32,624 nucleotides of DNA, from contig NYVM01000053.1 in NCBI GenBank assembly GCA_002684605.1, forward strand, positions 33,636-66,259, given 5' to 3'. Of the stretch, positions 12,099-32,574 are shown in pieces. The stretch's first letter is position 1. The number at the start of each line of letters is the position of its first letter. The notes below the pieces were generated by a model. It searched no databases, was not told the origin of the DNA, and saw only the letters and a list, made by a program, of their open reading frames with translations. Source of the stretch: Candidatus Pelagibacterales bacterium. GTDB taxonomy: Bacteria > Pseudomonadota > Alphaproteobacteria > TMED109. A program made the translations under genes and the position numbers.

Positions 12099-12099
12099 T

Positions 12100-12360
12100 A
12101 TGAAAAAACTTATACTCATCAGTCTTGTAATATTTTTTACCATCTGCTCAAGGTCTTGGGCTGAAGATAGTTCTTCTTATATTTTAGGTAATGGTAATGT
12201 TATATACAGTTATAAAGAACATCCTAACTCACGAACAGTTATTACGTTTCATATTGTATATTATAAAAAACAAGTGTTTAGATGTGTTACTAGTTATAGC
12301 TCTATAGAATGTACTTTACTAAAAGATAATCCTGTTGATAGAAGAGAAGTAGAGCAATAA
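12100..12360 (+). CDS. small secreted protein, function unknown
   Basis: The 86-residue protein has a signal peptide at residues 1-21 (KKLILISLVIFFTICSRSWA), with likely cleavage after SWA. The mature part of about 65 residues is beta-rich (NGNVIYSYKEHPNSRTVITFHIVYYKKQVFRC) and has two cysteines, FRC and IEC. It is divergent from the secreted protein at 11598-12005, with only 94 bases between them. I do not recognise the family. No strong Shine-Dalgarno is visible; GAG in the repeat tail is about 9 bases upstream. Confidence 0.5.
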   Translation: MKKLILISLVIFFTICSRSWAEDSSSYILGNGNVIYSYKEHPNSRTVITFHIVYYKKQVFRCVTSYSSIECTLLKDNPVDRREVEQ

Positions 12361-12695
12361 AGATAATTATTACTCTCATGTATATTTTTGGGTGGGGTAT
12401 TAATTGAGGACAAGATGACAGCCATTGAAACTGTTATGTATCCCTTTAATAAAGAAGAAATAGAGTTTGTAATATCTGGCTTAAAATAAAGCTCTATATG
12501 ATTCCACCAGTAGCTCCTAGAATCTAACCATATACACAAGCTGTTCCAATGACTCAACGTGGATTCTACACCTGTTTCTGATTACTATAGGCATATATAT
12601 CCACCACCACATCTCTATAACTCCAGATATTGTAGATGACTCTTTAATTTGTTAGAGTTTTATTATATATTTTAAATTTTTGATAAAGAGGCAAC
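12361..12695. other. intergenic stretch with one mini-frame and repeat copy B
   Basis: No convincing gene is present. A 24-codon frame at 12415-12489 (plus strand, starting MTAIETVMYPFNKEE) has GAGGA about 6 bases before its ATG and could be a remnant or a small peptide. The right half contains repeat copy B and stretches rich in GATTCT/AGAATC motifs that also occur at 15337-15440. Confidence 0.4.
12601..12664 (+). repeat. dispersed repeat, copy B (ahead of the gene at 12696)
   Basis: This begins CCACCACCACATCTC and continues CTCCAGATATTGTAGAT, then ACTCT and AGAGT that could pair as a small hairpin. It is the nearest relative of copy A and lies about 30 bases before the next start codon. 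Confidence 0.55.
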
Positions 12696-13124
12696 ATGAT
12701 TATTAATTATATTCTTTTTATTTCTTGTCCTATAATCTGTATTATATTTCATTGCTCAATAATATTGTCTATCAAGTTTTTATTCAAAAATTTAAATTAT
12801 GTTAATCTTTTTTTAATTACTTTAATACTATTTTTATCTCATATCGCTCATAATATATTATACGCATTTTATTATCAGTACTTAGTAAATACTAGCACAA
12901 ATATAAATATTATTATTAATAAAGCTAACGTAACTTTTATGGATTTTATTTATTTTTCATTCAGTAACTATACAACTTTAGGTATGGGAGATATTTTTAT
13001 TACAGGAGATGCTCGTTTAGCAGCAGCCATAGAATCTTTATTAGGGTTAATACTGATAGCTTGGTCAGCATCTGTAACTTATTATTACTTAGCTTATAAA
13101 ACTTATCCCAAAAAAAATAATTAA
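12696..13124 (+). CDS. potassium-channel-like membrane protein
   Basis: The 142-residue protein has three hydrophobic helices (about residues 6-30, 37-60 and 105-132). A re-entrant pore loop at 80-100 contains FSFSNYTTLGMGDI. T-T-L-G-M-G-D is a variant of the T-V-G-Y-G-D selectivity filter of two-helix ion channels, with Met in the Tyr/Phe position. The layout fits the Ion_trans_2 group, where four subunits would make a pore. There is no cytoplasmic ligand-binding domain. GAGG lies 6 bases before the ATG. Ion specificity is uncertain because of the filter change. Confidence 0.8.
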   Translation: MIINYILFISCPIICIIFHCSIILSIKFLFKNLNYVNLFLITLILFLSHIAHNILYAFYYQYLVNTSTNINIIINKANVTFMDFIYFSFSNYTTLGMGDIFITGDARLAAAIESLLGLILIAWSASVTYYYLAYKTYPKKNN

Positions 13125-17707: not shown

Positions 17708-18895
17708 ATGTACATTAAAAGCATTAGTATAAAAATTTCGTTGGTAACTATAATAGTTTTTAATACCATTGTATTTGCTAATGCAAAAGACACTATTAAA
17801 ATTGGCACTTTATTACCATACTCAGGAGTTTATACAGTTCTTGGAGAAGAAATTACAAATGCAATGATTTTGGCCTTTGAGGAAGTAGATAATTCCATAC
17901 TTGGTAAAACAATTGAATTAATAAAAGGTGACACTGAAGTTAAACCAAATATAGCACTTCAAAAAGCTAGAAAATTAGTTTCATCAGATAAAGTTGATAT
18001 CCTTGTTGGTCCAGTTTCATCATCAGTTGCATTAGCAATTAGAAACGTAGTAGTACAATCTAAAACACCACTCATTATACCTAATGCTGGTGCAAATGTT
18101 CTGACTGGAGAAAAGTGTTCTAAGTTTATAACAAGAATATCTTTTTCTAACTATCAAATAAATGCTCCTATGGGGACATGGCTTGCTGAAAGTGGTATAA
18201 AATCTGCATTTCTTTTAGCCCCTGATTATGCTGCTGGAAAAGAAATGATGTATGCATTTAAAACTAAGTTTGAAGAAGCTGGAGGAGAAATATTTGGTGA
18301 GGAATATACACCTTTTAGAAAAACAAAAGATTTTGGACCATATCTAGCAAGAGTAAAAAATAGTGGTGCAGATGCTGTTTACGTTTTCTATGCTGGAGGT
18401 GAAGCAATTAATTTTATTAAACAAGCGCATTCATTTGGACTAGGAGATGTAATGAAATTAACAGGAGCTGGCTGGACAACATCTCCTCTTTTCTTGCCTG
18501 CACAAAAAGATGCTGCTATTGGATTTATAGGTAGTTTAAATTATGTACCTTCAATAGATACAGAAGAAAATAATAATTTTATAAAAGCATATAAAGATAG
18601 ATTTGGTAGGTCTCCATCTGAATTTGCTGTTCAAGGCTATGACTCTGCTAAAGTTATAATTAAAGCAATTGAGGCGCTATCCGGAAACATAACAGATAAA
18701 GATAAGTTAGCGGAAGCAATTAACGCCGTATCTATTACTGGCCCTCGTGGCCCATTAACTATTGATCCTGAAACTAATAATGTAATTCAAAATATATATA
18801 TATTTGAAGTAGTAAAAGATAAAAATGGCCCAGAGCTGAAAGTATTGGATACAATTGAAGCTGTAAAAGCTCCGGGACCAGGTTGTAAACTTTAG
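17708..18895 (+). CDS. LIV-type ABC transporter, periplasmic substrate-binding protein
   Basis: The 395-residue protein has a signal peptide (about 1-26, ending FANA) and no lipobox Cys, so it is soluble in the periplasm. It is a Peripla_BP_6-type binding protein. IKIGTLLPYSGVYTVLGEE opens the first lobe, followed by DILVGPVSSSVALAIRNV, IIPNAGANVLTG, FAVQGYDSAKVII and GPRGPLTIDPETNNVIQNIYI. The family binds branched-chain amino acids but also amides, urea and aromatic acids. Adjacent box genes and benzoate-CoA ligase make an aromatic acid a good candidate ligand, by inference only. GGGGGA precedes the ATG. It is the first gene of a five-gene operon. Confidence 0.93.
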   Translation: MYIKSISIKISLVTIIVFNTIVFANAKDTIKIGTLLPYSGVYTVLGEEITNAMILAFEEVDNSILGKTIELIKGDTEVKPNIALQKARKLVSSDKVDILVGPVSSSVALAIRNVVVQSKTPLIIPNAGANVLTGEKCSKFITRISFSNYQINAPMGTWLAESGIKSAFLLAPDYAAGKEMMYAFKTKFEEAGGEIFGEEYTPFRKTKDFGPYLARVKNSGADAVYVFYAGGEAINFIKQAHSFGLGDVMKLTGAGWTTSPLFLPAQKDAAIGFIGSLNYVPSIDTEENNNFIKAYKDRFGRSPSEFAVQGYDSAKVIIKAIEALSGNITDKDKLAEAINAVSITGPRGPLTIDPETNNVIQNIYIFEVVKDKNGPELKVLDTIEAVKAPGPGCKL

Positions 18896-18903
18896 GAATT
18901 ACT

Positions 18904-19752
18904 ATGCTTCTTATACAATTTCTTAATGCCCTTCAGTTTTCAATGACATTATTTCTATTAGCTGTAGGGCTGACTATTATATTTGGATTAATGAAAATAG
19001 TTAACTTAGCACACGGTAGTTTATATATGATAGGAGCTTATTTAGGCTTATCAATTACTAACTATACAGATTCTTTTTGGTTAGCATTAGTAATTGCACC
19101 TATTCTTACAGCATCAATAGGAGCTATATTGTATTCCCTTCTCTTTAAACGTATTCAAAATGCAGACCCTATGAAACAGGTATTATTAACTTTTGGCCTC
19201 ATCTATATAGCTTTAGATTCTGTAAGATTATTATGGGGAACAATGAGTCATTCTATCTCAGCGCCTAATATATTATCAAATTCAATATTATTAATTAATG
19301 AACCTTATCCATCTTATAGATTATTTGTTATTGCTATAGGATTAATAGTCCTTTTTATATTATATATTATTTTAGAAAAAACAAAAATTGGAGCAAAAGT
19401 AAGAGCTTCTGTGGATGATCCAGAAACAGCACAGTTACTTAAGATAAATACAGATAAAATACTATTTTATACTTTTGCATTAGGATGTGGCTTAGCTGGT
19501 TTAGCAGGTATAACTGTAGCTCCTATATTAGGAGTAGAACCAGGAATGGATATGGAAGTTCTAGTCTTAACTCTTATTGTGGTGGTCGTCGGAGGTCCTG
19601 GCAGCCTAAAAGGAGCTATCATTGGTTCTTTATTAATTGGTTTTGTAGATAGTTTTGGCAAAGTCTACATACCTCAGCTAGCGCAAATCATAATTTATGC
19701 AGTTATGGCTTTAACTATATTATTTAAGCCAGATGGGTTGTATAAAAGATAA
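18904..19752 (+). CDS. LIV-type ABC transporter permease (LivH-like)
   Basis: The 282-residue membrane protein has about eight helices. LivH-type motifs are visible: LAVGLTIIFGLMKIVNLAHGSLYMIGAYLG at residues 18-47, RASVDDPETAQLLKINTDKI (cytoplasmic coupling loop), and ALGCGLAGLAGITVAPILGVEPGM, then GGPGSLKGAIIGSLLIGFVD. It forms the translocation pore with the LivM-like partner, whose start codon overlaps its stop by one base. It begins 8 bases after the binding-protein gene. Confidence 0.94.
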   Translation: MLLIQFLNALQFSMTLFLLAVGLTIIFGLMKIVNLAHGSLYMIGAYLGLSITNYTDSFWLALVIAPILTASIGAILYSLLFKRIQNADPMKQVLLTFGLIYIALDSVRLLWGTMSHSISAPNILSNSILLINEPYPSYRLFVIAIGLIVLFILYIILEKTKIGAKVRASVDDPETAQLLKINTDKILFYTFALGCGLAGLAGITVAPILGVEPGMDMEVLVLTLIVVVVGGPGSLKGAIIGSLLIGFVDSFGKVYIPQLAQIIIYAVMALTILFKPDGLYKR

Positions 19753-20705
19753 TGCATGCTGTAAATAATAATCCACAGTTAAGATTACAATTATTTTTTG
19801 TATTATTAATGTCTGCAATTATAGCAAATATATTTGGTGGATATTTTACAAGGTTTTTTGTGGCTGAAATAGTAATACTTTCTATTTTTGCAATAAGCTT
19901 AGATTTTATAGCCTCTAGAGGAGGAATGGTTTCTTTAGGTCATGCTATGTTTTTAGGAATTGGGGCATATGCAACTGCTATATTAACGCTTAATTATGGC
20001 ATAAGTCCTTTTGTATCAACTTTTTTAACATTTATTATTGCATCTTTAATAGGCCTTATTATAGCATATTTTATAGTGTTATTAGATGGAATATTTTTTA
20101 TAATGGTGACCTTAGCATTGGGAGAAATGTTCAATTCTTGGGTCTTTACAAGTGATTATTTAGGAGGTTCTGATGGTATTTCAGGTATTATGCGTCCTGA
20201 TTTAGCCTTTATAGGAATAGATACTAATAATCCTCTTATTTTCACATTTTATGTCCTTTTATGGTTAATAAGTATTTATGTTTTATTAATAAAAATTACA
20301 GATTCTCCACTTGGAAAAAACTTAGATGCGATAAGACAAAACTCAAATAGAATATCTGCAATTGGAGGGCACACTAAAGCGTACAAAGCAATTGCATTTT
20401 CTTTATCAGCAGGAATAGCGTCTATTGCAGGCTCGTTATATGTACAATTAAATGGGTTTATCTCTCCTGAATTAACGCATTGGACAGTTTCTGGTGAAGG
20501 TTTAATTATGATAATAGTTGGCGGAATTGGCTCAATTTCAGGTGCTATTTTGGGAGCTACTGTAGTACATATTATCCAGCATGAATTATCAAGTATAATA
20601 AATTGGTGGATGCTAGTCATAGGCTTTGGTTTTATATTTATTGTGCTCTTTATGAAAGATGGATTATGGGGCTTACTTGAGCAAATACAAAAAAAGATAA
20701 GGTAA
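19752..20705 (+). CDS. LIV-type ABC transporter permease (LivM-like)
   Basis: This is a 317-residue multi-pass protein. It has ISLDFIASRGGMVSLGHAMFLGIGAYATAIL near residues 47-77, DSPLGKNLDAIRQNSNRISAIGGHTKAYK as the cytoplasmic coupling loop, and AGIASIAGSLYVQLNGFISPELTHW, then VGGIGSISGAILGA. All are typical of LivM. The start overlaps the LivH-like stop (TAATG), so the two permeases are translationally coupled. No long N-terminal extension is present. Confidence 0.94.
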   Translation: MHAVNNNPQLRLQLFFVLLMSAIIANIFGGYFTRFFVAEIVILSIFAISLDFIASRGGMVSLGHAMFLGIGAYATAILTLNYGISPFVSTFLTFIIASLIGLIIAYFIVLLDGIFFIMVTLALGEMFNSWVFTSDYLGGSDGISGIMRPDLAFIGIDTNNPLIFTFYVLLWLISIYVLLIKITDSPLGKNLDAIRQNSNRISAIGGHTKAYKAIAFSLSAGIASIAGSLYVQLNGFISPELTHWTVSGEGLIMIIVGGIGSISGAILGATVVHIIQHELSSIINWWMLVIGFGFIFIVLFMKDGLWGLLEQIQKKIR

Positions 20706-20708
20706 AAT

Positions 20709-21443
20709 ATGTCATTATCTCTAAATAATATTAGTAAAAGTTTTGGAAATATAAAAGTTTTAAATAATGTAAATATTCAATCTCATGGTAGAGAATGCCT
20801 TGGCATAATAGGACCTAATGGAGCAGGTAAAAGCACTTTATTTAAAGTAATTTCTGGGAGCCTAAAACAAGATAAAGGTGATATTTATTTTAATAATCTT
20901 AATATAAATAATTTAAATATTAACAAAAGAGCAAGACTAGGTATAGCTCAAAGCTTTCAAAAAAATTCATTATTTTTAGAAATGACCGTAAAAGAAAGTA
21001 TAATGCTTGCACTTTCCCATAAATATAAAATTACATTCAAAATGCTAAATTCATTAATTAGTAATAAAGCAATAAATAATGATGCTATAGAAATTGCAAA
21101 AGATACAGGGCTTTATGATTATTTTGATACAAAATCTGATAATTTATCATATGGTTTACAGAGGCAGTTAGAATTAGGAATAGCAATATCTTGTAGGCCA
21201 AAATTGTTATTGTTAGATGAACCTACAGCCGGTATGAGTCCAGCAGAAACTAAGGAGATTATTAAATTAATAAAAAATCTATCTGGCAAATATTCTATCA
21301 TTTTAGTTGAACATGATATGGATGTTATTTATGAATTAGCTAATAGGATATATGTTTTAGATAGAGGTTCATTAATTTTTGAAGGTGACGCAAAAGCTGT
21401 AAAAAGTTCAGAATTAGTACAAAATAAATATTTAGGAATATAA
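20709..21443 (+). CDS. LIV-type ABC transporter ATP-binding protein (LivG-like)
   Basis: The 244-residue ATPase has Walker A GPNGAGKST at about residues 35-43, the Q-loop in QSFQKNSLFLEMTV, and signature LSYGLQRQLELGIAI. Walker B is LLLLDEPTAGMSPAET and the H-loop is LVEHDMDVI. The signature is LSYGLQ rather than LSGGQ, a variation usual in LivG. The 35-residue insert between the Q-loop and the signature also fits LivG. It follows the LivM-like gene by 3 bases. Confidence 0.94.
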   Translation: MSLSLNNISKSFGNIKVLNNVNIQSHGRECLGIIGPNGAGKSTLFKVISGSLKQDKGDIYFNNLNINNLNINKRARLGIAQSFQKNSLFLEMTVKESIMLALSHKYKITFKMLNSLISNKAINNDAIEIAKDTGLYDYFDTKSDNLSYGLQRQLELGIAISCRPKLLLLDEPTAGMSPAETKEIIKLIKNLSGKYSIILVEHDMDVIYELANRIYVLDRGSLIFEGDAKAVKSSELVQNKYLGI

Positions 21444-21446
21444 CTT

Positions 21447-22148
21447 ATGTCAATTCTTAGCCTTGATAATGTAAATACATTTTATGGAAAAAGTCATATC
21501 TTACAAGGAATAACCTTTGATTTAAAAAAACCAGGATGTTTAGCACTTTTAGGAAGAAATGGAGCAGGAAAAACAACTACACTTAGATCAGTTGTAAATT
21601 TAACTAAACCTTTTTCTGGTAAAATATTATTTAATAACAATAGTTTAATAAATTTATCTACTTATAAAATTGCAAAATTAGGTCTTACTTTGGTGCCTGA
21701 AAATAGAGGAATGTTTTCATCATTAAGCGTAGAAGAAAGCTTAAATATAGTAAATAGCCATTTTGATAATATTGAATGGACTAAAGAAAGAGTCTTAGAT
21801 ACTTTTCCACAGCTAAAATTAAAACTAAAAAATAACTCTGCAAGTTTATCCGGCGGAGAACAGCAAATGCTCGCAATTGGAAAAGCATTATTAACTAATC
21901 CAAAACTTATATTATTAGACGAACCAACTCAGGGATTAGCACCTAATATCGTAATTCAACTTACAGAAACATTAAAAGCGATAATTAAAGAAGGTATATC
22001 CATCGTAATAGTAGAGCAAAATGTTAATATGGCTCTAAAAATTGCAAATGACGTAGCTATAATCGGCAAAGGCGAGACAAAATGGAAAGGTAGCAAAGAT
22101 AAATTTTTAAAAGATATACAAAAACATAAGGAATGGATTGGTATATAA
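21447..22148 (+). CDS. LIV-type ABC transporter ATP-binding protein (LivF-like)
   Basis: The 233-residue ATPase has Walker A GRNGAGKTT near residue 36, LGLTLVPENRGMFSSLSVEESL (the Q-loop region), and signature LSGGEQQMLAIGKAL. Walker B is LILLDEPTQGLAPN and the H-loop IVEQNVNMAL has Gln where most ABC ATPases have His, as is usual in LivF proteins. It ends the operon. Its stop is only 5 bases from the end of the convergent boxB gene, and no terminator hairpin is visible between them. Confidence 0.94.
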   Translation: MSILSLDNVNTFYGKSHILQGITFDLKKPGCLALLGRNGAGKTTTLRSVVNLTKPFSGKILFNNNSLINLSTYKIAKLGLTLVPENRGMFSSLSVEESLNIVNSHFDNIEWTKERVLDTFPQLKLKLKNNSASLSGGEQQMLAIGKALLTNPKLILLDEPTQGLAPNIVIQLTETLKAIIKEGISIVIVEQNVNMALKIANDVAIIGKGETKWKGSKDKFLKDIQKHKEWIGI

Positions 22149-22153
22149 AAAAA

Positions 22154-23584
22154 TTACTTACCTAATTCAACATATTCATAGCCAGTATCAAGTTTATTTA
22201 TGCCTCTACTAGGGGCAGCAATCCAACCTGCAGTTTTATTTACTTCTGTTACTTGTACCATCAAGCTTTTAATATATTCTCTATCATTTTCTGATGGTAA
22301 CCATGAACTTATGTTAGTATCAAATTCACTTTTTGATATTATCTTGCCTCCAGGGTTAGTTTCTATACCCGCCCATATTCCAATACTTCTTCTGAACCTC
22401 GTTGAAGGCAATGCTAATACTATATCTTGTCCAGATTTTTTAATTAATCTATTCCATCTCTTTAAACCAATTTCACAATCTGCAACATAAGATAACCTTG
22501 TAATTTCATTCATAGCATTTCTCATGGGAATAGTTTGCTCTTCTAAAGCATTTTTTATTGATAACCCTTCAAATGTATATGTACTATTTTTCTCTGAATG
22601 ATCCTCATATCTCATTTCATCAGGCCTGCCTTTCAACCCATTAGCAAAGGCTGTGGCTGAGTTTGAAGATATCTCAGACCCAAACAAATCTAAAGATGAA
22701 GAAAACCAAAAATTTATATATCTTTGTATAGTTTGTAAATCTACTACACCTGCATTTCTTATAGCCTCTACAGAGTCTGTTTTTAGCTCATTCATGACTT
22801 CTAATGTTCTTTGTATCATCCGTGTAATACCTGACTCCCCTACTTGCATGTGATGAGCTTCTTCCGTCAACATAAATTGACATGTTCTTGCTAAAGGATC
22901 AAAACTACTTTCTGCCAAAGATTTTAATTGGTACTTACCATCTCTATCTGTAAAATACGTAAACATAAAGAAACTAACCCAATCTGTAATTGGCTCATTA
23001 AATGTTCCTAGTATTCTAGGATTGTCAATATCTCCAGAATTTCTTTCTAATAGACCTTCAGCTTCCTCTCTTCCATCTCTTCCAAAATAGGCATGCAATA
23101 GATAAACCATAGCCCATAAGTGCCTACCTTCTTCAACATTAACCTGAAATAAATTTCTTAAATCATACAAAGAGGGGCACGTCTTACCAAGTTCTCTTTG
23201 TTGTTCAACAGATGCGGGCTCCGTATCTCCTTGAGTAACTATTAATCTTCTCAATATTGAACGATAGTCACCAGGAACTTGTTGCCAAACAGGCTTACCA
23301 ATATTATCTCCAAAATGAATTTTTCTATCTGTTACTTTATCATTTAAAAAAATGCCCCACCTATATTCAGGCATTTTTACTTTACCATAAGTGGCCCATC
23401 CTTCTGCATCTACAGATGTTGCTGTTCTGAGGTAGACATCAGAAGCTTGAAAACCCTCTGGACCCATTTCTGTCCACCAGCTTTTGAATTTCGGCTGCCA
23501 ATGTTCTAGAGCTCTCTGTAGAGATAAATCATTACTTAGGTCAACATTGTTAGGTATTTTTTCTTGGTAGTTTAAGTTAGTCAT
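22154..23584 (-). CDS. boxB: benzoyl-CoA 2,3-epoxidase, oxygenase subunit BoxB
   Basis: BoxB is a class I di-iron monooxygenase that inserts oxygen into benzoyl-CoA to form 2,3-epoxybenzoyl-CoA. It needs electrons from a reductase (BoxA). The 476-residue length is standard. Di-iron ligand motifs E-x2-H occur at E152-H155 (VEEGRHLW) and E242-H245 (TEEAHHMQ), with E122 and acidic residues between them as further ligands. Other family blocks are SKWW-like FKSWWTEMGP, WATYGKVKMPEYRWGIFL, FFMFTYFTDRDGKYQL, and DLFGSEISSNSA. The gene follows boxC by 3 bases with AAAGGGTG as ribosome site. It is the last gene of the minus-strand unit. Confidence 0.96.
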   Translation of the reverse strand: MTNLNYQEKIPNNVDLSNDLSLQRALEHWQPKFKSWWTEMGPEGFQASDVYLRTATSVDAEGWATYGKVKMPEYRWGIFLNDKVTDRKIHFGDNIGKPVWQQVPGDYRSILRRLIVTQGDTEPASVEQQRELGKTCPSLYDLRNLFQVNVEEGRHLWAMVYLLHAYFGRDGREEAEGLLERNSGDIDNPRILGTFNEPITDWVSFFMFTYFTDRDGKYQLKSLAESSFDPLARTCQFMLTEEAHHMQVGESGITRMIQRTLEVMNELKTDSVEAIRNAGVVDLQTIQRYINFWFSSSLDLFGSEISSNSATAFANGLKGRPDEMRYEDHSEKNSTYTFEGLSIKNALEEQTIPMRNAMNEITRLSYVADCEIGLKRWNRLIKKSGQDIVLALPSTRFRRSIGIWAGIETNPGGKIISKSEFDTNISSWLPSENDREYIKSLMVQVTEVNKTAGWIAAPSRGINKLDTGYEYVELGK

Positions 23585-23587
23585 AAT

Positions 23588-25237
23588 TTACACCCTTTTA
23601 TTATCAAATTTTGCTCTTGTTCCTGTGCCAAATAATTTTAATGCACCTTTTTCGCTTACTGCATTTGGTCTATTAAATATCCAGTTTTGCCATGCTGAAA
23701 GTCTTCCAAATATTTTTGTTTCACAAGTTTCTTTTCCTGGAAAACGCAAATTAGCTTCTAAACCTGTCAAAGCATCAGGTGAGAAACTTGTTCTTTCCTC
23801 AACACTTAATCTAATTTCTTCTTTCCAATCAAGGTCATCCGGAATAATCGTGATTAATTCTTCATCGTATGCTTCTTCAGCATTAATCTTTTTATTTATT
23901 ATTTTACGTAAATTATTTAATTTTAGTTCATCACTATTAAATCTTGTTGATAATCTCGTAAGACCATTTACCATCTCTAATGATTCAAAATTTATTTTAC
24001 TTAATGATATGTAAGGGCCTTTAAGAGAATTTGCTTCTAAAGCATTATTAAGCATGTAAGTTCTATCTGCACAAAATAGTAACTCAGCTAAAATACCTGA
24101 AAAACAACTATCATTGTCTACTATCGTAAATATAGACCTTGAAGACAAATCTAATCGGGATAAAGTCCTTCTAAGAAAACCAATAATTTCATTAACCAAC
24201 CAATTATTTTTATTTTCTTCAATAATAGTAGTAAGTTTAATAATATTTTCTGTATTGCCTTCAGATGTAATAGTAAACACTCCTACTTCTAACTCATTTG
24301 TTCTTAGTAAAAGTATTAAATCCTCAAGTTCCCTTGCAAATTTTAATGGCCACCAATTACATCCTAATTCTTCTGCATCATCTAGAGATATTAATTGGTC
24401 CTCTTTAGGTCCTATAATATGAATATTAGCTATGCGGCTTTCTTTATCTATTTTACACAAGACTGTTTCATAATTAATTTCATTATCATTAACTGCTCTA
24501 TTTAATTTAGATAATGCAACTCCTGTTTTACCATTTCTTAATTTAACAGTATTAGATAATTCAGAAACTCTAGATTCTGTCAAATCGTCAAATTTTGAAG
24601 GCGGAGCAATATAATCTACTAATTTCCATTCAACCGCCTTTTTCCCTCTAATACCATCAGCATTAGTGCAAAAAATATCAGCTAAATCTTTTCTTACTTT
24701 TCTTTTGTCTATTAACCTTGTAACCCCTCCTGTTCCTGGAAGAACTCCTAACAATGGAACTTCTGGTAAACTAACTGTACTTGACCTATCATCTACTAAA
24801 AGTATTTCATCACAGGCAAGCGCTACTTCATAACCTCCACCTGCACAAATACCATTTACTGCAGCAATAAATTTGATAGATCCAGAGTTACTAGAATCCT
24901 CAAAACCATTTCTTGTTTCATTAGTAAATTTACAAAAATTAACTTTCCAAGTATGTTCTGATTGTCCCAGCATGTAAATATTTGCTCCTGCTGAAAAATT
25001 CTTTTCTTGTTTAGAAGTAATTACAACTACTTTTACTGTTGGTTGTTCAAAACGTATTCTTTGAACAATATCATTTAGCTCTATATCAACTCCTAAATCA
25101 TAAGAATTTAGCTTTAAGTCATAACCAGGTTTAATTCCATCTTTCTCAGAAACATCTAAATAAAGAGTCGCTTTATTGTCAGTTACTTCTACAGTCCAAT
25201 GTTTATAATTACCCCACTCTTTGTCAAATGTAATCAA
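23588..25237 (-). CDS. boxC: 2,3-epoxybenzoyl-CoA dihydrolase BoxC
   Basis: BoxC opens the epoxide ring hydrolytically to 3,4-dehydroadipyl-CoA semialdehyde and formate. The 549-residue protein is of normal BoxC length, about twice a simple crotonase. The crotonase core shows in KNFSAGANIYMLGQSEHTWK at about residue 80, AAVNGICAGGGYEVALACDE, and LPEVPLLGVLPGTGGVTRL. The C-terminal part contains the BoxC-typical LTGLEANLRFPG, IFGRLSAWQNWIFNRPNAV and LKLFGTGTRAKFDNKRV. The start codon is TTG (25235-25237), with GGGAG 7 bases upstream. No ATG in frame gives a better start. A TGCA-N6-TGCA site lies 18 bases upstream. Confidence 0.96.
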   Translation of the reverse strand: MITFDKEWGNYKHWTVEVTDNKATLYLDVSEKDGIKPGYDLKLNSYDLGVDIELNDIVQRIRFEQPTVKVVVITSKQEKNFSAGANIYMLGQSEHTWKVNFCKFTNETRNGFEDSSNSGSIKFIAAVNGICAGGGYEVALACDEILLVDDRSSTVSLPEVPLLGVLPGTGGVTRLIDKRKVRKDLADIFCTNADGIRGKKAVEWKLVDYIAPPSKFDDLTESRVSELSNTVKLRNGKTGVALSKLNRAVNDNEINYETVLCKIDKESRIANIHIIGPKEDQLISLDDAEELGCNWWPLKFARELEDLILLLRTNELEVGVFTITSEGNTENIIKLTTIIEENKNNWLVNEIIGFLRRTLSRLDLSSRSIFTIVDNDSCFSGILAELLFCADRTYMLNNALEANSLKGPYISLSKINFESLEMVNGLTRLSTRFNSDELKLNNLRKIINKKINAEEAYDEELITIIPDDLDWKEEIRLSVEERTSFSPDALTGLEANLRFPGKETCETKIFGRLSAWQNWIFNRPNAVSEKGALKLFGTGTRAKFDNKRV

Positions 25238-25250
25238 AATCTATCTCCCA

Positions 25251-25272
25251 TAATGTGCAATATAATGCATTA
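25251..25272. promoter_or_regulatory. candidate BoxR operator ahead of boxC (TGCA-N6-TGCA)
   Basis: TGCA at 25256-25259 and 25266-25269 are separated by 6 bases and flanked by TAATG...CATTA. The same TGCA-N6-TGCA spacing occurs in the divergent promoter region at 26219-26232. It lies between the regulator gene and boxC, close to the boxC ribosome site. Confidence 0.5.
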
Positions 25273-25282
25273 AGCAATAATC

Positions 25283-26185
25283 TCAAGTTTTAAATAATTT
25301 TAATTTAAGTTTTGAATAAGATTGTTTAACTGAAGCATTTTCTGTATCAATTATTAAATCAGCTTTTGAATATAAGGACACCCTCTCATTTAAAATGTTA
25401 TTTAAATCTTCCATTGCTCTAGGATTAGAATTCATTGGCCTAGAATCTCCTTGCATTAAAACTCTAGACATATGTTCTTTAGGACTTGCCTTAATCCAAA
25501 CAGTAAAATAATTATTTAACAAATAATTGTATGTTTCTTTTTCAGAAACAATACTTCCTCCCGTTAGAAGTATTAAATTTTTATGATTTTTATGAAAAGA
25601 ACTAACTATATCGTATTCAAATCTCCTATACATGCCTTGACCACCAAGTTCTATTATTTCATTAATATTCATACCACCTAAAATTTCAATTTCATTAGAT
25701 ACTTCAAATACAGGAGTATTAAACTCTTTATGAAGCATATTACCTAATGTAGATTTCCCCGCACCTCTTAGACCAATAAATGCAATTTTATTTTTATTCT
25801 TTTTAAGTGTGTTATCTCTATAAATGTTCTCTATTAAACTATAAACTTTTTTTAATTGTTCAGGGGAAAACTCACTAAGTTTATTATCAAGAGTTCCTAG
25901 CTCTAATTGATTATAGTCATTTTCAAAAAGCATATCAGAAAGCGACATGTTGAGTGCATAAGCAATATTTTTTAAAATAGATATGGAAGGATTTGCTTTA
26001 CCACCTTCTAATTGAGCTAAATACCTAATCGAAGTCCCAGATAAACTTGCTAAAAGTTTTCTTGTTATTCCTCTTTTAGATCTATATTTTTTTACCATCA
26101 AACCTAAATTATTTAATCTGATACTTTCTTCTTCTATAGCTTTTAATGATAAAAGATTATTTTCTTGATCTAATATTTTATTCAT
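25283..26185 (-). CDS. boxR: BoxR/BzdR-type transcriptional regulator (HTH + shikimate-kinase-like domain)
   Basis: The 300-residue protein has the two-domain architecture of BzdR/BoxR. An XRE-type helix-turn-helix spans about residues 28-85 (TRKLLASLSGTSIRYLAQLEGGKANPSISILKNIA). A short linker follows, then a shikimate-kinase-like domain with P-loop GLRGAGKSTLG at 138-148. Members of this family repress aromatic-degradation promoters and release DNA on binding benzoyl-CoA. They do not act as shikimate kinases. It lies between boxC (same strand, 45 bases downstream) and the divergent flavodoxin gene, so it probably controls both transcripts. Confidence 0.93.
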   Translation of the reverse strand: MNKILDQENNLLSLKAIEEESIRLNNLGLMVKKYRSKRGITRKLLASLSGTSIRYLAQLEGGKANPSISILKNIAYALNMSLSDMLFENDYNQLELGTLDNKLSEFSPEQLKKVYSLIENIYRDNTLKKNKNKIAFIGLRGAGKSTLGNMLHKEFNTPVFEVSNEIEILGGMNINEIIELGGQGMYRRFEYDIVSSFHKNHKNLILLTGGSIVSEKETYNYLLNNYFTVWIKASPKEHMSRVLMQGDSRPMNSNPRAMEDLNNILNERVSLYSKADLIIDTENASVKQSYSKLKLKLFKT

Positions 26186-26211
26186 TTACAACTTTCACTA
26201 CTAATGATATC

Positions 26212-26239
26212 AAATAAATGCATTATAGTGCATTTATTT
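26212..26239. promoter_or_regulatory. candidate BoxR operator, perfect 11+6+11 inverted repeat
   Basis: AAATAAATGCA (26212-26222) and TGCATTTATTT (26229-26239) are exact reverse complements around a 6-base spacer. It sits in the 89-base divergent region between boxR and the flavodoxin gene. The TGCA-N6-TGCA core recurs at 25256-25269. TGCA-containing operators have been described for BzdR/BoxR in other bacteria, which supports the assignment. Confidence 0.7.
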
Positions 26240-26274
26240 AACAAATGTAAACTTATTTAACTTTGGATAAAAAT

Positions 26275-26742
26275 ATGAGTTCTAACAATTTACTAATATT
26301 AGTTGCTACAATGACTGGCACAGCACTTATGGCAGCTGAAGATATAGCTGAATATTGTGAAAATAATGATATAAAAACAATAATTCATGAAATGGATGAT
26401 CTTCAAATTAGTGAAATAATAAACGTTAATAGTCCTGTTTTAATTTGTTCTTCTACCTATGGACAAGGCGATGTTCCTGACGGATCCCAAGAATTCTATA
26501 ATGAATTAAAACAGGCAGCCCCAGATCTATCTAACGTAAAATATAGTGTTTTTGGTTTAGGCGATATGACTTATAGAGACACATTTGCTTATGGTGGTAA
26601 AAAGTTCTTTGACTTGTTAAAATCTTTAGGTGCAAACTCTTTAGGAGAACCTTTTTATCATGATGCCTCAGACGGAACATTACCTGAAGAAATAGCTGTT
26701 GATTGGTTTAAAGATAATATAATGCAATTAATAAAAAGTTAA
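26275..26742 (+). CDS. flavodoxin-domain protein (MioC-like), candidate electron carrier for BoxB
   Basis: This is 155 residues from the ATG at 26275. A TTG 12 bases upstream is also in frame but offers nothing. The flavodoxin fold shows in ILVATMTGTALMAAEDIAEYC (phosphate loop T-x-T-G-T), STYGQGDVPDGSQEFYNEL (first flavin loop), and VFGLGDMTYRDTFAYGGKKFFDLLKSLGA (second loop). These are typical of short FMN flavodoxins related to MioC and the flavodoxin domains of diflavin reductases. It is the first gene of the unit with benzoate-CoA ligase, behind the putative BoxR operator. This suggests a role in delivering electrons to BoxB, since no BoxA reductase is seen. That function is inferred. 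Confidence 0.88.
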   Translation: MSSNNLLILVATMTGTALMAAEDIAEYCENNDIKTIIHEMDDLQISEIINVNSPVLICSSTYGQGDVPDGSQEFYNELKQAAPDLSNVKYSVFGLGDMTYRDTFAYGGKKFFDLLKSLGANSLGEPFYHDASDGTLPEEIAVDWFKDNIMQLIKS

Positions 26743-26754
26743 GTAGAGCTAATA

Positions 26755-28284
26755 ATGAACATAAAATATAATGCTGCATATGATTTGTTAAAGAGAAATA
26801 TTGATAAAAATCCCGAAAAAATTGCCTTTATAGATAATAACAATTCGATTACCTATAAAGAATTATTTGATAGAATAAAAGCCTTTTCATATTCTATAAA
26901 AAAACATCAAATAAAAGAAAATGATAGAATTATTTTATGTATGCATGATTCTATTGAATATCCAATTGTATTTTTAGGATTAATATGGGCGGGTATAATT
27001 CCCATATGTATAAATACAATGCTTCCACAAAAAGACTATGAATATATGCTCGAAGATTCAGAGGCTAAAGCTGTTATTACTTCTTCTAATTTAAAAGATT
27101 GTTTTTTATCAATAATTAAAAAATTAAAGAATAAACCATTACTAATTATTAATGAGGATGATAAATTAAACAGCCTTAATATGCTTATAAATCAAACAGA
27201 TAATTATATACAAAACCCCTTTGATACTCATGGAGATGATGTTGCCTTTTGGCTTTATTCTTCAGGCTCTACAGGGACTCCTAAAGGCACATTGCATATA
27301 CATAAAAGCTTAATAGCCACGGCAAATACCTATGCAAAAAAAGTAATTAAGATAAATAAAAATGATATCTGTTTTTCTGCGGCCAAACTTTTTTTTGCTT
27401 ATGGTTTAGGAAATGCGCTTACCTTTCCTATGAGCGTTGGAGCTACATCTATATTAATGACAGATAGACCAACCGCAGAATCTGTTTCTAATATTATTAA
27501 AAAATACTCTGTTACATTGTTTTTTGGCGTACCAACCTTATATGCTGCACTTTTAAACTCCAATATAAATATAGAGGATTATATATCCTTAAGGCTTTCA
27601 GTGTCTGCTGGAGAAGCATTACCTGCTCATCTATGTAAAAAATGGAGCGAAATATTAGGTATAAGCATTTTAGATGGAATAGGTTCTACTGAAATGTTAC
27701 ATATTTTTATATCTAATACAGTTGAAGAAACTATTCCAGGAGCTTCTGGTAGACCAGTAGAAGGATATAAAGCAAGACTTATTAAGGATGATGGCACAAA
27801 AGCTTTAGACGATGAAATTGCTGAATTAGAAATTCAAGGACCTTCAAGCGCTATATCTTATTGGAAAAAACCAGAAAAATCTCAAATAACCTTTAAAGAA
27901 AATTGGGTAAAAACTGGTGATAAGTACATTAGAAGTAAAAATGGTATATATACATACTGTGGAAGAGCTGATGATATGATGAAAGTATCGGGTCAATACG
28001 TTTCGCCCTTTGAAGTGGAAGGGGCATTACAAAGTCATAAAGGCGTCTTAGAAGCTGCCGTGGTTGCCGAAAAAGATGATAATAATTTAATTAAGCCAAA
28101 AGCCTTTATCGTTTTAAATAATAATATTTTAGCATCTAAAGATTTAGAATTAGAACTAACAAACCATGTAAAAAATCAATTAACACCCTTTAAATACCCA
28201 AGATGGTATGAATTTGTGGAAAATTTACCTAAAACTGCCACAGGCAAGATTCAAAGGTTTAAACTAAGAGGTAAAAATGGATGA
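26755..28284 (+). CDS. bclA: benzoate-CoA ligase family protein
   Basis: This ATP-dependent ligase activates benzoate (or a close analogue) to the CoA thioester, with AMP and PPi released. The 509-residue protein carries the AMP-binding motif YSSGSTGTPKGT at 168-179. It also has the family-typical FSAAKLFFAYGLGNALTFPMSVGAT and TLFFGVPTLYAALL, KTGDKYIRSKNGIYTYCGRADDMMKVSGQYVSP, and a C-terminal catalytic Lys in KTATGKIQRFKLR. AKLFFAYGLGN is a hallmark of benzoate- and hydroxybenzoate-CoA ligases. The first start lies 12 bases after the flavodoxin stop, and the stop overlaps the next start by 8 bases. Confidence 0.95.
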   Translation: MNIKYNAAYDLLKRNIDKNPEKIAFIDNNNSITYKELFDRIKAFSYSIKKHQIKENDRIILCMHDSIEYPIVFLGLIWAGIIPICINTMLPQKDYEYMLEDSEAKAVITSSNLKDCFLSIIKKLKNKPLLIINEDDKLNSLNMLINQTDNYIQNPFDTHGDDVAFWLYSSGSTGTPKGTLHIHKSLIATANTYAKKVIKINKNDICFSAAKLFFAYGLGNALTFPMSVGATSILMTDRPTAESVSNIIKKYSVTLFFGVPTLYAALLNSNINIEDYISLRLSVSAGEALPAHLCKKWSEILGISILDGIGSTEMLHIFISNTVEETIPGASGRPVEGYKARLIKDDGTKALDDEIAELEIQGPSSAISYWKKPEKSQITFKENWVKTGDKYIRSKNGIYTYCGRADDMMKVSGQYVSPFEVEGALQSHKGVLEAAVVAEKDDNNLIKPKAFIVLNNNILASKDLELELTNHVKNQLTPFKYPRWYEFVENLPKTATGKIQRFKLRGKNG

Positions 28285-29050
28285 AGATAATGATTTTATT
28301 TATATAAATGGTTTTAAAATAGAAATTAAAGTTATTTCACAAAATTCTAATTTGGAACCTATTATTTTCTTGCACGAAGGTTTAGGTAGCGTTTCATTAT
28401 GGAAAGATTTTCCATTAAAAGTTTCAAAAGCTACAAATAGAGATGTAATATTATATTCTCGAATAGGTATGGGAAAGTCATCTCCTATAAGAGAAAATAG
28501 AAAATCAACCTACATGCACGATGAGGCAAATATATATTTACCTCAAATCATCAAAAGTTTAAACCTATCTGAAGTAATTTTATTTGGTCACTCTGATGGA
28601 GCTTCAATTGCATTAATATATGCAGGCAGTGGTTTTAAAGTAAAATCTCTTATTTTGGAAGCTCCACATGTGTTTGTAGAAGATATTTCAATAAAAGGAA
28701 TAGAATATGCAAAAAAAATGTGGCATAGCAATGACTTAAAGAATAAACTTTCTAAATATCATAAAGATGTAAGTGGGGCATTTAATGGGTGGTGTAATGC
28801 ATGGTTATCAAAAGAGTTTAGAAAATGGAATATTGAAAGCTACTTAAAAAATATTAATTTACCAATCATGTTGATACAAGGTCTAAATGATGAGTACGGA
28901 ACTTTAAAACAATTAGATAGTATAGATAAAAATGTTATTAATAAAACCTACAGGATAGAGATAGAAGACTGTGGTCACAGTCCTCACTCTCAATACCCTA
29001 AAGAAATTATAAATAAGATAAAATATTTTTTATCTTATAATTTAACTTAA
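28277..29050 (+). CDS. alpha/beta hydrolase, possible aromatic acyl-CoA/ester hydrolase
   Basis: The 257-residue alpha/beta-hydrolase has [15 protein letters not shown] (oxyanion region, HEG in place of HG), nucleophile Ser106 in GHSDG, an acid in IQGLNDEYG, and His in [11 protein letters not shown]. These are the expected triad. Its start overlaps the end of the ligase gene, so it is translationally coupled. Hydrolases next to box genes are known in other bacteria and have been suggested to act on aromatic esters or CoA thioesters, for example to prevent CoA trapping. The actual substrate is unknown. Confidence 0.88.
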
Positions 29051-30459
29051 ATTGACGGTAAATTTGATAACGCCATAGCAACTTCACTTTCATCATAGGC
29101 TTGGTCTTTTAATTTACCACCAAAATAATCCATGTATGCTTGCATATCAAAATGACCATGACCACATAGATTAAATAAAATTGTCTTGCTCTCTCCTTCT
29201 TCTTTTGCCTTTAAGGCCTCAACAATAGCACCTTTAACTGCATGATTGGCTTCAGGAGCTGGCAATATACCCTCTGCTTTAGCAAATGTTACACCTGCTT
29301 CAAAACACTCTAATTGTTTATAAGATGTACATTCAATATGCTCTTCATTTGCCAGATGACTAACTAATGGTGACATTCCATGATATCTTAATCCACCAGC
29401 ATGAAATCCAGGTGGCACAAAAGAGGAGCCTAAAGTATGCATTTTTACTAAAGGCGTTAAATGACCAGTATCACCAAAGTCATATGCAAATTTACCTTTT
29501 GTTAAAGTTGGGCAATTTGCAGGTTCTACAGCAACAATTCTTGTTTTACTTTCTCCTCTTAAGTTTCTTCCTATGTATGGAAATGATATTCCTGCAAAAT
29601 TAGACCCTCCACCAGTACATCCAACTATAACGTCTGGTTCATCACCCGCAATTTCTAATTGTTTAATACTTTCTTGCCCAATGATTGTTTGGTGTAATAA
29701 AACATGATTTAGAACACTTCCTAATGCATACTTTGTATCATCTCTCTGTGCTGCCATCTCCACTGCTTCTGATATAGCTATTCCTAGACTACCTGTACTG
29801 TCTGGACTATCTGCTAGTATAGCTCTTCCCGATTCTGTCTCATTACTTGGACTAGCCACACATCTCGCTCCAAAACTTTCCATTAAAGCTCGTCTATAAG
29901 GTTTTTGACCATAACTTACTTTAACCATATAAACATCTACTTCTAGACCAAAAATAGCCCCTGCATAGGCTAAAGATGATCCCCACTGACCCGCTCCGGT
30001 TTCAGTAGTTAATCTTTTTATACCTTCTTGCTTATTATAATAAGCTTGAGGAATTGCTGTATTGGGTTTATGACTTCCAGAAGGACTTACTCCCTCATAC
30101 TTATAATAAATTTTTGCAGGTGTATCTAAAGCTTTTTCTAATTTTCTTGCTCTATATAAAGGGCTTGGGCGCCACTGCCTGTAAATATCTCTAACTTGAT
30201 CTGGTATTTCTATTTCTCTATCAGTACTCACTTCTTGCATTATTAATTCCATAGGAAATAATGGGGCTAAATCAGCTGGTCCGATAGGTTCTTGTGTTCC
30301 AGGATTCAAAGGAGGAGCAAGTGGCGTTTTTAAATCTGAAGCTATATTATACCAATGAGTTGGCATCTCATACTCATTTAAATGAATTTTTACTCTTTCA
30401 TTTTCATAATTTGTTTGATCTAGTGCTGAAAGCACATCTTGTTCACCTTTTTTAAACAT
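29047..30459 (-). CDS. TrpB-like (TrpB2-type) PLP-dependent enzyme
   Basis: This 470-residue protein belongs to the TrpB2-like branch of tryptophan-synthase beta chains. The PLP Lys is K131 in [18 protein letters not shown], preceded by [11 protein letters not shown]. The phosphate-binding loop is [11 protein letters not shown]. The longer N-terminus ([24 protein letters not shown]) is typical of TrpB2, not of TrpB1. There is no trpA partner nearby. TrpB2 enzymes can act as serine/threonine deaminase-like or indole-scavenging enzymes. It follows the nitrilase-fold gene by 18 bases on the same strand and overlaps the tail of the alpha/beta hydrolase gene by 4 bases. Confidence 0.92.
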
Positions 30460-30477
30460 ATAACACCCCTTTAATAA

Positions 30478-31548
30478 CTATTTTTTTGACTTAACCCATA
30501 TTCCTCTATCATGCATTAATTTGATTTGTTTATCAATAATTTTTGATTTGTATTCTTTATGTTTCATTGGTTTATTATTTAAATATAAATTTTTTGGATA
30601 TATAGGATCTTTATATAACAATTGATATAATTCACTTCTAATATCTTTCATCCAGTTATCCCATTGAGCATTTTCCCTATGGTATCTTAGGGCTTCTATA
30701 TCTACCACCCCAGAAACATAGGTTGAAGAACCTCCATAATCTTGTTTACCAACTATTTTTCCTTTATAATCAATAAGAGAAGACCGTCCTCCAAAAGTAT
30801 CTATTGGAATATTACTTTCTTTTTGTAAATAGTATGTACCCATATTTGGGGCTAAAACATACATATTATTATCTAATGCTCGGGCACGGCTTTGTATTTC
30901 GAATATCTCATTTCCAGTTGCAGGATGAGGATAAGAAGCTCTATAAACAACCTCTGCTCCATTTAATGCAAGAGCTCTCGCATTTTCAGGATAAGAACCT
31001 TCATTAGCCATCATGATACCAAGTCTACCTATATCTGTCTCAACTACAGGCCAAAAAGCATCTAAATTATTTCCATATTTATCTATCCACCAATCATAAA
31101 TATCGTGAGGACAAACTGAGTGTTCAACTGGAAATAAAGGAGAAACTTTATAATGAATTAATATTACTTCTCCTGAAGGATCTATAATAAAACCACAATT
31201 AAAAAATCTATTTGGCCAATCTGGATGTCTTGCTTTAGCCTGAGCTATAATATAAGTATCATATTCTCGAGCTAAGCCTCCAAGCATATCTGTTTCCCAT
31301 CCAGGAATATCAATACAACATGTTTTTGCAAAATCTTCGTGATCAGCATCTAGGACTTCATCATTAAAACCCTGCAATGCTCCTTCAGGTATAGCTATTA
31401 GTCTTACAGGCAAAGATAAGCTTGATAACCAAGAAGCTGCTTTTGTTAAGTGCTTAATATGGGTTAAGTTTTCCTTAATATCAGACCTATGCCTTATTCC
31501 TCTTACAGTAGGGATCAATCCAACTGCTGTATATGGCTTAATACTCAT
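30478..31548 (-). CDS. nitrilase/amidase-fold protein lacking the catalytic cysteine
   Basis: This is 356 residues from the ATG at 31546-31548, with AAGGAAG 5-7 bases upstream. An ATG 21 bases earlier lies within that site. The carbon-nitrogen hydrolase fold is clear: Glu55 in LIAIPEGALQGF, Lys134 in LIHYKVSPLFP, and GIMMANEGSYPENARALALNGAEVVY. In aliphatic amidases the last motif reads IICDDGNYPE, with Cys as nucleophile. Here the aligned position is Ala181 (codon GCT). With the Cys gone the usual covalent mechanism is not possible, so it may be a binding protein, a regulator, or use a different chemistry. It is encoded upstream of the TrpB-like gene in one unit. Confidence 0.88.
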   Translation of the reverse strand: MSIKPYTAVGLIPTVRGIRHRSDIKENLTHIKHLTKAASWLSSLSLPVRLIAIPEGALQGFNDEVLDADHEDFAKTCCIDIPGWETDMLGGLAREYDTYIIAQAKARHPDWPNRFFNCGFIIDPSGEVILIHYKVSPLFPVEHSVCPHDIYDWWIDKYGNNLDAFWPVVETDIGRLGIMMANEGSYPENARALALNGAEVVYRASYPHPATGNEIFEIQSRARALDNNMYVLAPNMGTYYLQKESNIPIDTFGGRSSLIDYKGKIVGKQDYGGSSTYVSGVVDIEALRYHRENAQWDNWMKDIRSELYQLLYKDPIYPKNLYLNNKPMKHKEYKSKIIDKQIKLMHDRGIWVKSKK

Positions 31549-31626
31549 AATATCTTCCTTAAAATACAAATTAACAAAATTGAAGTCTGCAATTATACTT
31601 ACATATAATATATATTCTTAATAGTA

Positions 31627-32574
31627 TTATCCTAAAATTGATAATAATTTATTTATAACGTCTTTAGTTTTCGCTTTGCCTCCTAAATCTGGAGTAAAAG
31701 GCCCCCCATCTTTAGCATATTTTTTTATAGCATTATTAATTCTATTAGCAGACTTATATTCTCCTAAATAATTTAACATAAGAACCCCGCTCCATATAGC
31801 ACCTATAGGGTTTGCAATTCCCTTACCTACAATGTCAAATGCAGAACCATGAATAGGCTCAAACATAGATGGATATATTTTATTAGTATTAATATTTGCA
31901 GTAGCTCCTATTCCTAAACTACCTGTTAATGCAGATGCAAGGTCTGATAAAATATCTGCATGTAAATTTGTAGCAACTATGACGTCAATTTTCTCTGGGC
32001 TATTAACCATTACTGCTGTAGCTGCATCTACTAACAACTTACTTGTCTTAATTGAAGGGTATTTTTTACTAACCTCATAAAAAACCTTGTCCCAAAGCTT
32101 CATACCATGCCTTTGTGCATTAGATTTTGTAATTAATGTTAAATGCTTTTGGGGTCTTTTTAAAGCTAATTTAAAAGCATATTCATGAATTCTTCTGCAT
32201 CCTTCTCTAGTGAATATTGCTAATTCGCTTCCTACTTCTAAAGAAAGTCCTTTATGAACAATACCTCCGGAGCCAGCATATTCACCCTCACTATTTTCTC
32301 TGACTATTATCCAATCTATATTTTTTGCTAAATTTTTATTTAATGGTGTATTAATTCCCTCCATATATTTAGATGGTCGGATATTTGCAAATTGATCAAG
32401 TTTCTGACAAATTTCTAATCTAAGCCCCCATAAGGTTATATCGTCGTCAATATTTTTATCACCTACAGCACCAAAGAAAATTGCATCATGCATTTTTAAT
32501 TTATCTAAACCATCACTTGGCATCATTTTATTATATTTTTTAAAATAAGCACTCCCCCATTGATAATACTTTAG
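31627..32574 (-). CDS. isocitrate/isopropylmalate dehydrogenase-family protein (tartrate/malate dehydrogenase type), 5' end missing
   Basis: This NAD-dependent beta-decarboxylating dehydrogenase is truncated at its N-terminus. The reading frame stays open beyond the MMPSDG codons at 32521-32526. Codons up to the palindrome axis at 32574 encode LKYYQWGSAYFKKYNK, which matches the WG-x-x-YY-x-x-x-GRMMPxDGLD block of tartrate dehydrogenases. Further motifs are DAIFFGAVGDK, VRENSEGEYAGSGG, LTLITKSNAQRHGMKLWDKV, DAATAVMVNSPEKIDVIVATNLHADILSDLASALTGSLGIGATANIN, and MFEPIHGSAFDIVGKGIANP. The GDD region of isopropylmalate dehydrogenase is replaced as in the tartrate/D-malate group. The remaining N-terminus (about 50 residues) is lost because of the fold-back. 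Confidence 0.88.
   Translation of the reverse strand, partial: LKYYQWGSAYFKKYNKMMPSDGLDKLKMHDAIFFGAVGDKNIDDDITLWGLRLEICQKLDQFANIRPSKYMEGINTPLNKNLAKNIDWIIVRENSEGEYAGSGGIVHKGLSLEVGSELAIFTREGCRRIHEYAFKLALKRPQKHLTLITKSNAQRHGMKLWDKVFYEVSKKYPSIKTSKLLVDAATAVMVNSPEKIDVIVATNLHADILSDLASALTGSLGIGATANINTNKIYPSMFEPIHGSAFDIVGKGIANPIGAIWSGVLMLNYLGEYKSANRINNAIKKYAKDGGPFTPDLGGKAKTKDVINKLLSILG

Follow-up and report, generated by a model that had tools for sequence, protein, structure and literature searches.

A BoxR-linked flavodoxin of the cindoxin class as the probable electron donor to benzoyl-CoA epoxidase in a box cluster without BoxA

How is the di-iron benzoyl-CoA epoxidase BoxB supplied with electrons when the box (aerobic benzoyl-CoA) gene cluster around it encodes no BoxA? 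The question is raised by a 32,624-nucleotide stretch of contig NYVM01000053.1 from a Candidatus Pelagibacterales bacterium, a marine alphaproteobacterium with AT-rich DNA (hereafter the window, meaning the whole stretch analyzed), in which a box cluster includes a flavodoxin gene. Of the enzymes in the cassette, BoxB alone depends on an outside supply of electrons. BoxA is regarded as its reductase, and boxA-less clusters, such as the chromosomal copy of P. xenovorans LB400, which resembles the window in this respect, are treated as incomplete and complemented by a second copy in the accessible part of PMC10803450, where no replacement donor is named. We propose, with a probability of about 0.73, that a dedicated cindoxin-class flavodoxin replaces BoxA, the sequence evidence being consistent with a chain from NADPH through an FprA-type reductase and the flavodoxin to BoxB. 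The recurring pairing of this flavodoxin with BoxB probably represents a second, undescribed way of powering the enzyme. Literature searches, which reached parts of the relevant sources, returned no report linking a flavodoxin with BoxB or describing a flavodoxin donor to a di-iron acyl-CoA epoxidase. If the proposal is correct, a flavodoxin would be such a donor, and marine and soil bacteria scored as incapable of aerobic benzoate degradation would be capable of it.

The box cluster and its flavodoxin

The cluster consists of two divergent units, boxR-boxC-boxB on the minus strand and flavodoxin-ligase-hydrolase on the plus strand, with the following features:

22154..23584, minus strand: boxB, benzoyl-CoA 2,3-epoxidase, a di-iron oxygenase (TIGR03225, 733.8 bits; cut-off 499)
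23588..25237, minus strand: boxC, dihydrolase (TIGR03222, 794.7 bits; cut-off 712)
25256..25269, no strand: second BoxR-operator-like palindrome, TGCA-N6-TGCA, in the gap between boxR and boxC (motif match)
25283..26185, minus strand: boxR, regulator with an XRE-type helix-turn-helix and a shikimate-kinase fold (NF006015, 312.6 bits; cut-off 204; PF01381 and PF01202)
26219..26232, no strand: BoxR operator TGCATTATAGTGCA, part of the divergent promoter that separates boxR from the flavodoxin gene (motif match)
26275..26742, plus strand: flavodoxin of the class comprising cindoxin, MioC and the flavin mononucleotide (FMN) domain of P450 reductase, the proposed electron donor to BoxB (PF00258, 86 bits; cut-off 25)
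26755..28284, plus strand: benzoate-CoA ligase (TIGR02262, 658.1 bits; cut-off 375)
28277..29050, plus strand: alpha/beta hydrolase, a usual box neighbor (PF00561, 55.7 bits)

The flavodoxin and ligase genes are separated by 12 bases, and the ligase and hydrolase genes overlap by 8 bases. An earlier note, made from the sequence alone, had named these six genes and their two divergent units, an assignment that family models above cut-off bear out. Its remark that the cluster holds no boxA or boxD reading frame agrees with the window's list of open reading frames (ORFs; at least 80 amino acids from 17708 onward and at least 100 before), among which we found neither BoxA nor a BoxD-type aldehyde dehydrogenase, the ORFs outside the cluster being judged by reading, without a library scan. 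Like the BoxAB/BoxC pathway of Aromatoleum (Azoarcus) evansii, the cluster comprises BoxB, BoxC, the ligase, BoxR, the operator sequence and an adjoining ABC transporter; unlike that pathway, it lacks BoxA (a ferredoxin plus a plastid-type ferredoxin-NADP reductase, FNR) and BoxD, and a flavodoxin heads its ligase unit. The window BoxB matches the solved A. evansii enzyme (PDB 3per) with 632.9 bits. Residues E122, E152, H155, D213, E242 and H245, which we take to be the di-iron ligands after the numbering of the A. evansii structure, shifted by 2, are invariant wherever the residue is present among 107 rows compared, two distant second BoxB copies being omitted. The di-iron site thus appears intact, and the other components expected of the box pathway, BoxC, benzoate-CoA ligase and BoxR with a TGCA-N6-TGCA operator, are all present beside it by sequence.

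The flavodoxin ORF was listed from a TTG at 26263; the relatives and a 155-residue database twin (P0001, 99%) favor the ATG at 26275, which is most likely the start. Its nearest solved structure by sequence is cindoxin (PDB 4oxx, 78.5 bits), which scores above the FMN domains of P450 reductases. In a fold comparison with the AlphaFold2 model (mean predicted local distance difference test score, pLDDT, 93.5), cindoxin again ranked first, with a predicted-fold template modeling (TM) score of 0.84 and 32% identity. The protein has the PF00258 fold and carries the TMTGTA phosphate loop and the loops STYGQGD and GLGD expected of a flavodoxin that binds FMN; FMN binding is predicted. Cindoxin itself passes electrons from a flavin adenine dinucleotide (FAD) reductase, cindoxin reductase, to cytochrome P450cin, according to the accessible part of PMC9687028. 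The closest solved relative is thus itself a flavodoxin supplying an oxygenase with electrons from NADPH; the oxygenase there is a heme P450 and here a di-iron acyl-CoA epoxidase, and 32% of residues are identical in the fold comparison.

The earlier note had also placed a BoxR operator before the flavodoxin gene, which opens the ligase unit. The site, TGCATTATAGTGCA, lies at 26219-26232; the window reads ATGCATTATAGTGCAT there, with one mismatch to the BoxR consensus palindrome ATGCACTATAGTGCAT as given in the accessible part of PMC6449761. Order-1 simulations of the window (n = 200) yielded on average 0.48 TGCA-N6-TGCA sites and 0.005 sites of the strict form TGCAYTATARTGCA, against three and one observed. 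The strict form is present in 9 of the 11 close relatives (introduced below) that have boxR beside the flavodoxin gene, the remaining pair, L007 and L012, having a degenerate version, and is absent from the fetched loci of both relatives without boxR there (L008, L011). Among nine close relatives compared, the second palindrome is exact in L001, L003, L006 and L013, has one mismatch in L002, and is degenerate in L007, L009, L010 and L012. Across all fetched loci, the strict operator was found in 14 of 41 BoxB loci of flavodoxin genomes (the nine close relatives included), in 2 of 16 BoxA loci, and in none of 30 loci with neither BoxA nor flavodoxin. The flavodoxin of the window's group very likely belongs to the BoxR regulon.

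Conservation of the flavodoxin in BoxB-encoding genomes

Scanning a genome collection for BoxB yielded 29 loci, of which L001-L013 represent close relatives with BoxB 72-90% identical to that of the window, all from marine alphaproteobacterial metagenome-assembled genomes or (by name) single-cell genomes. All 13 have the flavodoxin-ligase-hydrolase unit divergent from (boxR-)boxC-boxB, and in all 13 the box-linked flavodoxin is the sole PF00258 protein of the genome. A whole-genome BoxA search of these 13 relatives, which left out the window's own genome, gave no match over cut-off (best, 33 bits, partial), in line with the expectation of the earlier note that no canonical boxA would be found elsewhere. 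The same search recovered BoxA in all six relatives whose BoxB-BoxA cluster is canonical and complete (G022-G025, G027 and G028; 6 of the 29 genomes), which is why we consider it to work; these six we take to be Acetobacteraceae. In the ten more distant genomes (G014-G021, G026, G029), BoxA was not over cut-off either.

A class-wide draw of 385 alphaproteobacterial genomes contained 81 with BoxB over cut-off. BoxA was over cut-off in 13 of the 79 searched here, and one more, G260, was counted as having it on the strength of a 416-bit fragment cut by a contig end; the other two, G001 and G008, have none by the earlier search. Genomes scoring at least 200 bits with the flavodoxin profile A1 were counted as carriers. 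Of the 36 carriers, 32 have BoxB, compared to 81 of 385 genomes overall (Fisher, 2e-20), a test that is partly circular because 17 of the flavodoxins in A1 come from the draw's own BoxB loci; without the 19 profile-building genomes, the count is 13 of 17 (Fisher, 4e-8). The 200-bit line was chosen after the scores had been seen, and neither test corrects for kinship. We fetched the BoxB surroundings (8 kb per side, less at contig ends) from 65 BoxA-less genomes and from 13 of the 14 BoxA genomes (G372 was left out). The flavodoxin gene is near boxB in 18 of the 65 BoxA-less loci and in none of the 13 BoxA loci (p 0.03), so that the adjacency, on which the earlier note had staked its proposal, extends beyond the close relatives.

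Where the flavodoxin lies away from boxB (17 loci fetched: L197, L199-L214), it commonly retains the same company. Ten of these loci (L197, L199-L202, L210-L214), or 10 of the 13 in BoxB genomes, hold a BoxR-flavodoxin cassette with the ligase, hydrolase or boxC. The remainder are L204-L206 and L208, from genomes without BoxB, L207 and L209, where it is paired with the hydrolase in BoxA genomes, and L203, at a contig edge. The flavodoxin-hydrolase pairs of G110, G143, G246 and G411 (L204, L205, L206 and L208) adjoin the aconitase gene acnA, which was scanned in L206, the others having the same gene cluster.

In a draw of 369 gammaproteobacterial genomes, five had a flavodoxin of at least 150 bits, and three of these have BoxB (p 8e-4). 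Two of them, G503 and G726, carry a BoxB-BoxC-BoxR-flavodoxin-ligase cassette and no BoxA over cut-off; in G519, BoxA adjoins BoxB and the flavodoxin is encoded elsewhere. Among the 17 gammaproteobacterial BoxB genomes, four have BoxA over cut-off. The BoxBs of G503 and G726 are the lowest scoring of the 17 (735 and 726 bits; window, 734) and 66-67% identical to that of the window. A BoxB tree of 109 rows, built by a quick method, places the window in a group of 35 rows; 31 of these, the window included, have the flavodoxin, and one of the 31, G093, has BoxA too. The other large group contains the remaining BoxA rows (16, plus 2 with both genes) and 12 flavodoxin rows. An independent-pairs test of BoxA versus flavodoxin on this tree yielded only three to four pairs and had no power.

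Electron route and alternative readings

In the proposed route, BoxR would repress both units from the operator at 26219 until benzoyl-CoA appears, as the BoxR literature leads one to expect, and the ligase would form this benzoyl-CoA. An FprA/adrenodoxin-reductase-type enzyme encoded elsewhere would transfer NADPH electrons to the flavodoxin FMN, the flavodoxin would dock transiently on BoxB and pass single electrons to the di-iron center, and BoxC would open the epoxide. The accessible part of PMC4498308 reports that BoxA acts in minor amounts via transient contact, which makes a swap of donors plausible.

The reductase is likely of the FprA/adrenodoxin-reductase type, judging from gene neighborhoods. 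Nine BoxB loci have such a gene (168 bits to PDB 1cjc) downstream of boxB and in the same orientation, adjoining it in L131, L132, L133, L135 and L136 and at a distance of 0.6-2.1 kb in L127, L129, L130 and L134; eight of the nine loci, all except L135, also contain the flavodoxin. A search of other loci (L001-L029, L076-L155, L186-L214) detected the gene neither in any BoxA locus nor in L001-L013. Eleven of the 13 close relatives encode one FprA-type protein elsewhere, not clustered with box genes. The earlier note had suggested a general ferredoxin/flavodoxin-NADP reductase; the findings agree with a general enzyme, but the type is likely FprA/adrenodoxin, PF00175-type reductases being found in only 7 of the 13. 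Those enzymes, 2Fe-2S/FNR proteins of about 340-350 amino acids resembling BenC or MmoC, were considered as partners and set aside: they are always on another contig than boxB, and in G001, G003 and G011 they adjoin another PaaA-family protein, more likely their client. The Fer2 protein whose gene follows boxB in L018 and L019 was rejected as a donor, as its domains are those of a molybdenum-hydroxylase subunit. Ten neighbors were scanned in BoxA-less BoxB loci without a nearby flavodoxin; the FprA-type gene of L135 was the one candidate donor, and the neighbor in L106 proved to be a flavoprotein of the old-yellow-enzyme type.

Several observations weigh against replacement of BoxA by the flavodoxin. 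BoxA is missing from 67 of the 81 alphaproteobacterial BoxB genomes and from 13 of the 17 gammaproteobacterial ones (in G499, boxB is at a contig edge). Such absence is common and therefore not informative by itself; a missing BoxA is ordinary, and the new part is the BoxR-linked flavodoxin. Moreover, 38 of the 67 also lack a flavodoxin of at least 200 bits (37 if G136, with 178 bits, is counted as a carrier), so that BoxB evidently manages without both; seven of these genomes have a flavodoxin cousin and 30 have neither. Exclusion between BoxA and the flavodoxin is not significant at the genome level (3 of 14 versus 29 of 67, p 0.15), and in G093, which also has the flavodoxin, BoxA is encoded directly next to a BoxB from the same clade as the window's, although this BoxA, located between a contig-end BoxB fragment and the window-group BoxB, may serve either. 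Outside the close relatives, flavodoxin genomes show the strict operator at just 5 of 28 BoxB loci. Within the close relatives, the FprA gene stands in other gene contexts (eight inspected), and the search detected none in G002 and G007. With completeness not given for the relatives, a single absence of BoxA weighs little, but thirteen jointly weigh more. Finally, eight of the 13 close relatives contain short ferredoxin-like matches, in frames of 113-122 residues, that cover the BoxA query from position 9 to 56-91.

These last matches, which fall in the ferredoxin portion of BoxA, speak for the alternative that a general ferredoxin with an FprA-type reductase feeds BoxB, the flavodoxin having an accessory role, perhaps as a substitute under low iron or as the partner of another enzyme. 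The many BoxA-less genomes without the flavodoxin and the wide distribution of FprA-type proteins (63 of 80 genomes searched) fit it as well. Yet the flavodoxin heads the ligase unit beside the BoxR operator and tracks BoxB in two classes, and the BoxR cassette contains no electron user other than BoxB; we consider this alternative unlikely, though deserving of attention. That the flavodoxin and hydrolase form a unit with some other shared function, captured by the box cluster, is suggested by flavodoxin-hydrolase pairs without adjoining BoxR or ligase in G110, G143, G246, G411, G226 and G319, the first four of which have no PaaA/BoxB-family protein at all. Against such a capture, BoxA-type clusters that have no flavodoxin contain the hydrolase too (for example, L022, L144 and L145), BoxR, flavodoxin and ligase occur without a hydrolase match in L197, L263 and L264, and 32 of the 36 flavodoxin genomes have BoxB, which makes it very unlikely. 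We give hardly any credence to the remaining reading, namely that the window's genome has a boxA at another place, with the flavodoxin as an addition. The BoxA search covered the relatives' genomes, and three genomes (G319, G226 and G093) do carry both proteins; however, no close relative has BoxA over cut-off, and in G226 and G319 BoxA adjoins boxB, with the flavodoxin located apart and without BoxR.

Some further redox proteins were noted. The BoxA-less (by cut-off) genomes G018-G021 (L018-L021) encode a plastid-type FNR in frames of 333-467 residues, matching the reductase half of BoxA with 132-145 bits and PetH-like where scanned (G021), and CysJ-like diflavin proteins are present in G017 and G026.

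Related flavodoxins and flanking genes

A second tier of flavodoxins (112-136 bits with a local profile, 131-153 bits with A1) is encoded divergently from enoyl-CoA-hydratase-family genes in ten genomes; the three such genes scanned were ECH_1, PaaG and PaaF-like. In five of the ten (G213, G108, G116, G398 and G151; loci L186, L187, L188, L190 and L192), a PaaA-like di-iron protein adjoins the flavodoxin cousin in divergent orientation (the three that were scanned score 54-78 bits with TIGR02156, cut-off 280), and two gammaproteobacterial loci (G496, G620) resemble this arrangement. The PaaA-like protein is possibly a single-subunit epoxidase of the phenylacetyl-CoA type that works without PaaE. 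The phenylacetyl-CoA epoxidase PaaABCE is a related di-iron acyl-CoA epoxidase (PF05138) but has PaaE, combining FNR and 2Fe-2S, as its donor (PMC4498308, accessible part). The position of the cousin beside PaaA-like proteins suggests that the class serves acyl-CoA epoxidases more widely. We lean, somewhat above even odds, toward the broader view that cindoxin-class flavodoxins would be dedicated donors to BoxB and to a single-subunit PaaA-like epoxidase, independent of BoxA and PaaE and with NADPH entry through FprA/adrenodoxin-type reductases, in Alphaproteobacteria and some Gammaproteobacteria and most regularly with one BoxB clade.

G228 and G113 (loci L195 and L196), both about 2 Mb in size and lacking BoxB, encode the flavodoxin, and beside it or nearby a branched-chain-type ABC transporter as well as an FprA-type reductase. 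In three of six close relatives searched (G001:C27, G003:C5 and G011:C1; loci L038, L039 and L040), a second PaaA-family protein (PF05138, 82-88 bits) is encoded about 1 kb from the BenC/MmoC-like reductase, with a short-chain dehydrogenase between them, an arrangement predicted to be another di-iron oxygenase with its own reductase.

The genes that converge on boxB differ among the members of the group:

17708..22148, plus strand, window: branched-chain-type ABC transporter (substrate-binding protein, LivH, LivM, LivG, LivF), its ORFs named by reading
11266-12696, L007: aldehyde dehydrogenase
11447-12883, L008: aldehyde dehydrogenase
11443-12864, L012: aldehyde dehydrogenase

The transporter, probably for benzoate uptake, has homologs in the same place in 8 of the 13 close relatives (L001-L006, L011 and L013; that of L004 is cut by the contig end). 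The aldehyde dehydrogenase, BADH/HpaE-like and not named BoxD, is convergent with boxB in 5 of the 13, including the matching genes of L009 and L010. A homolog with 59-66% identity is encoded elsewhere in seven more close relatives; this enzyme may take the role of BoxD. On the other side of the cluster, positions 29047-32526 of the window contain genes that were judged, by reading, to be TrpB-like, nitrilase-like and isopropylmalate/tartrate-dehydrogenase-like, a flank retained beside the box cluster in 8 of the 13 relatives.

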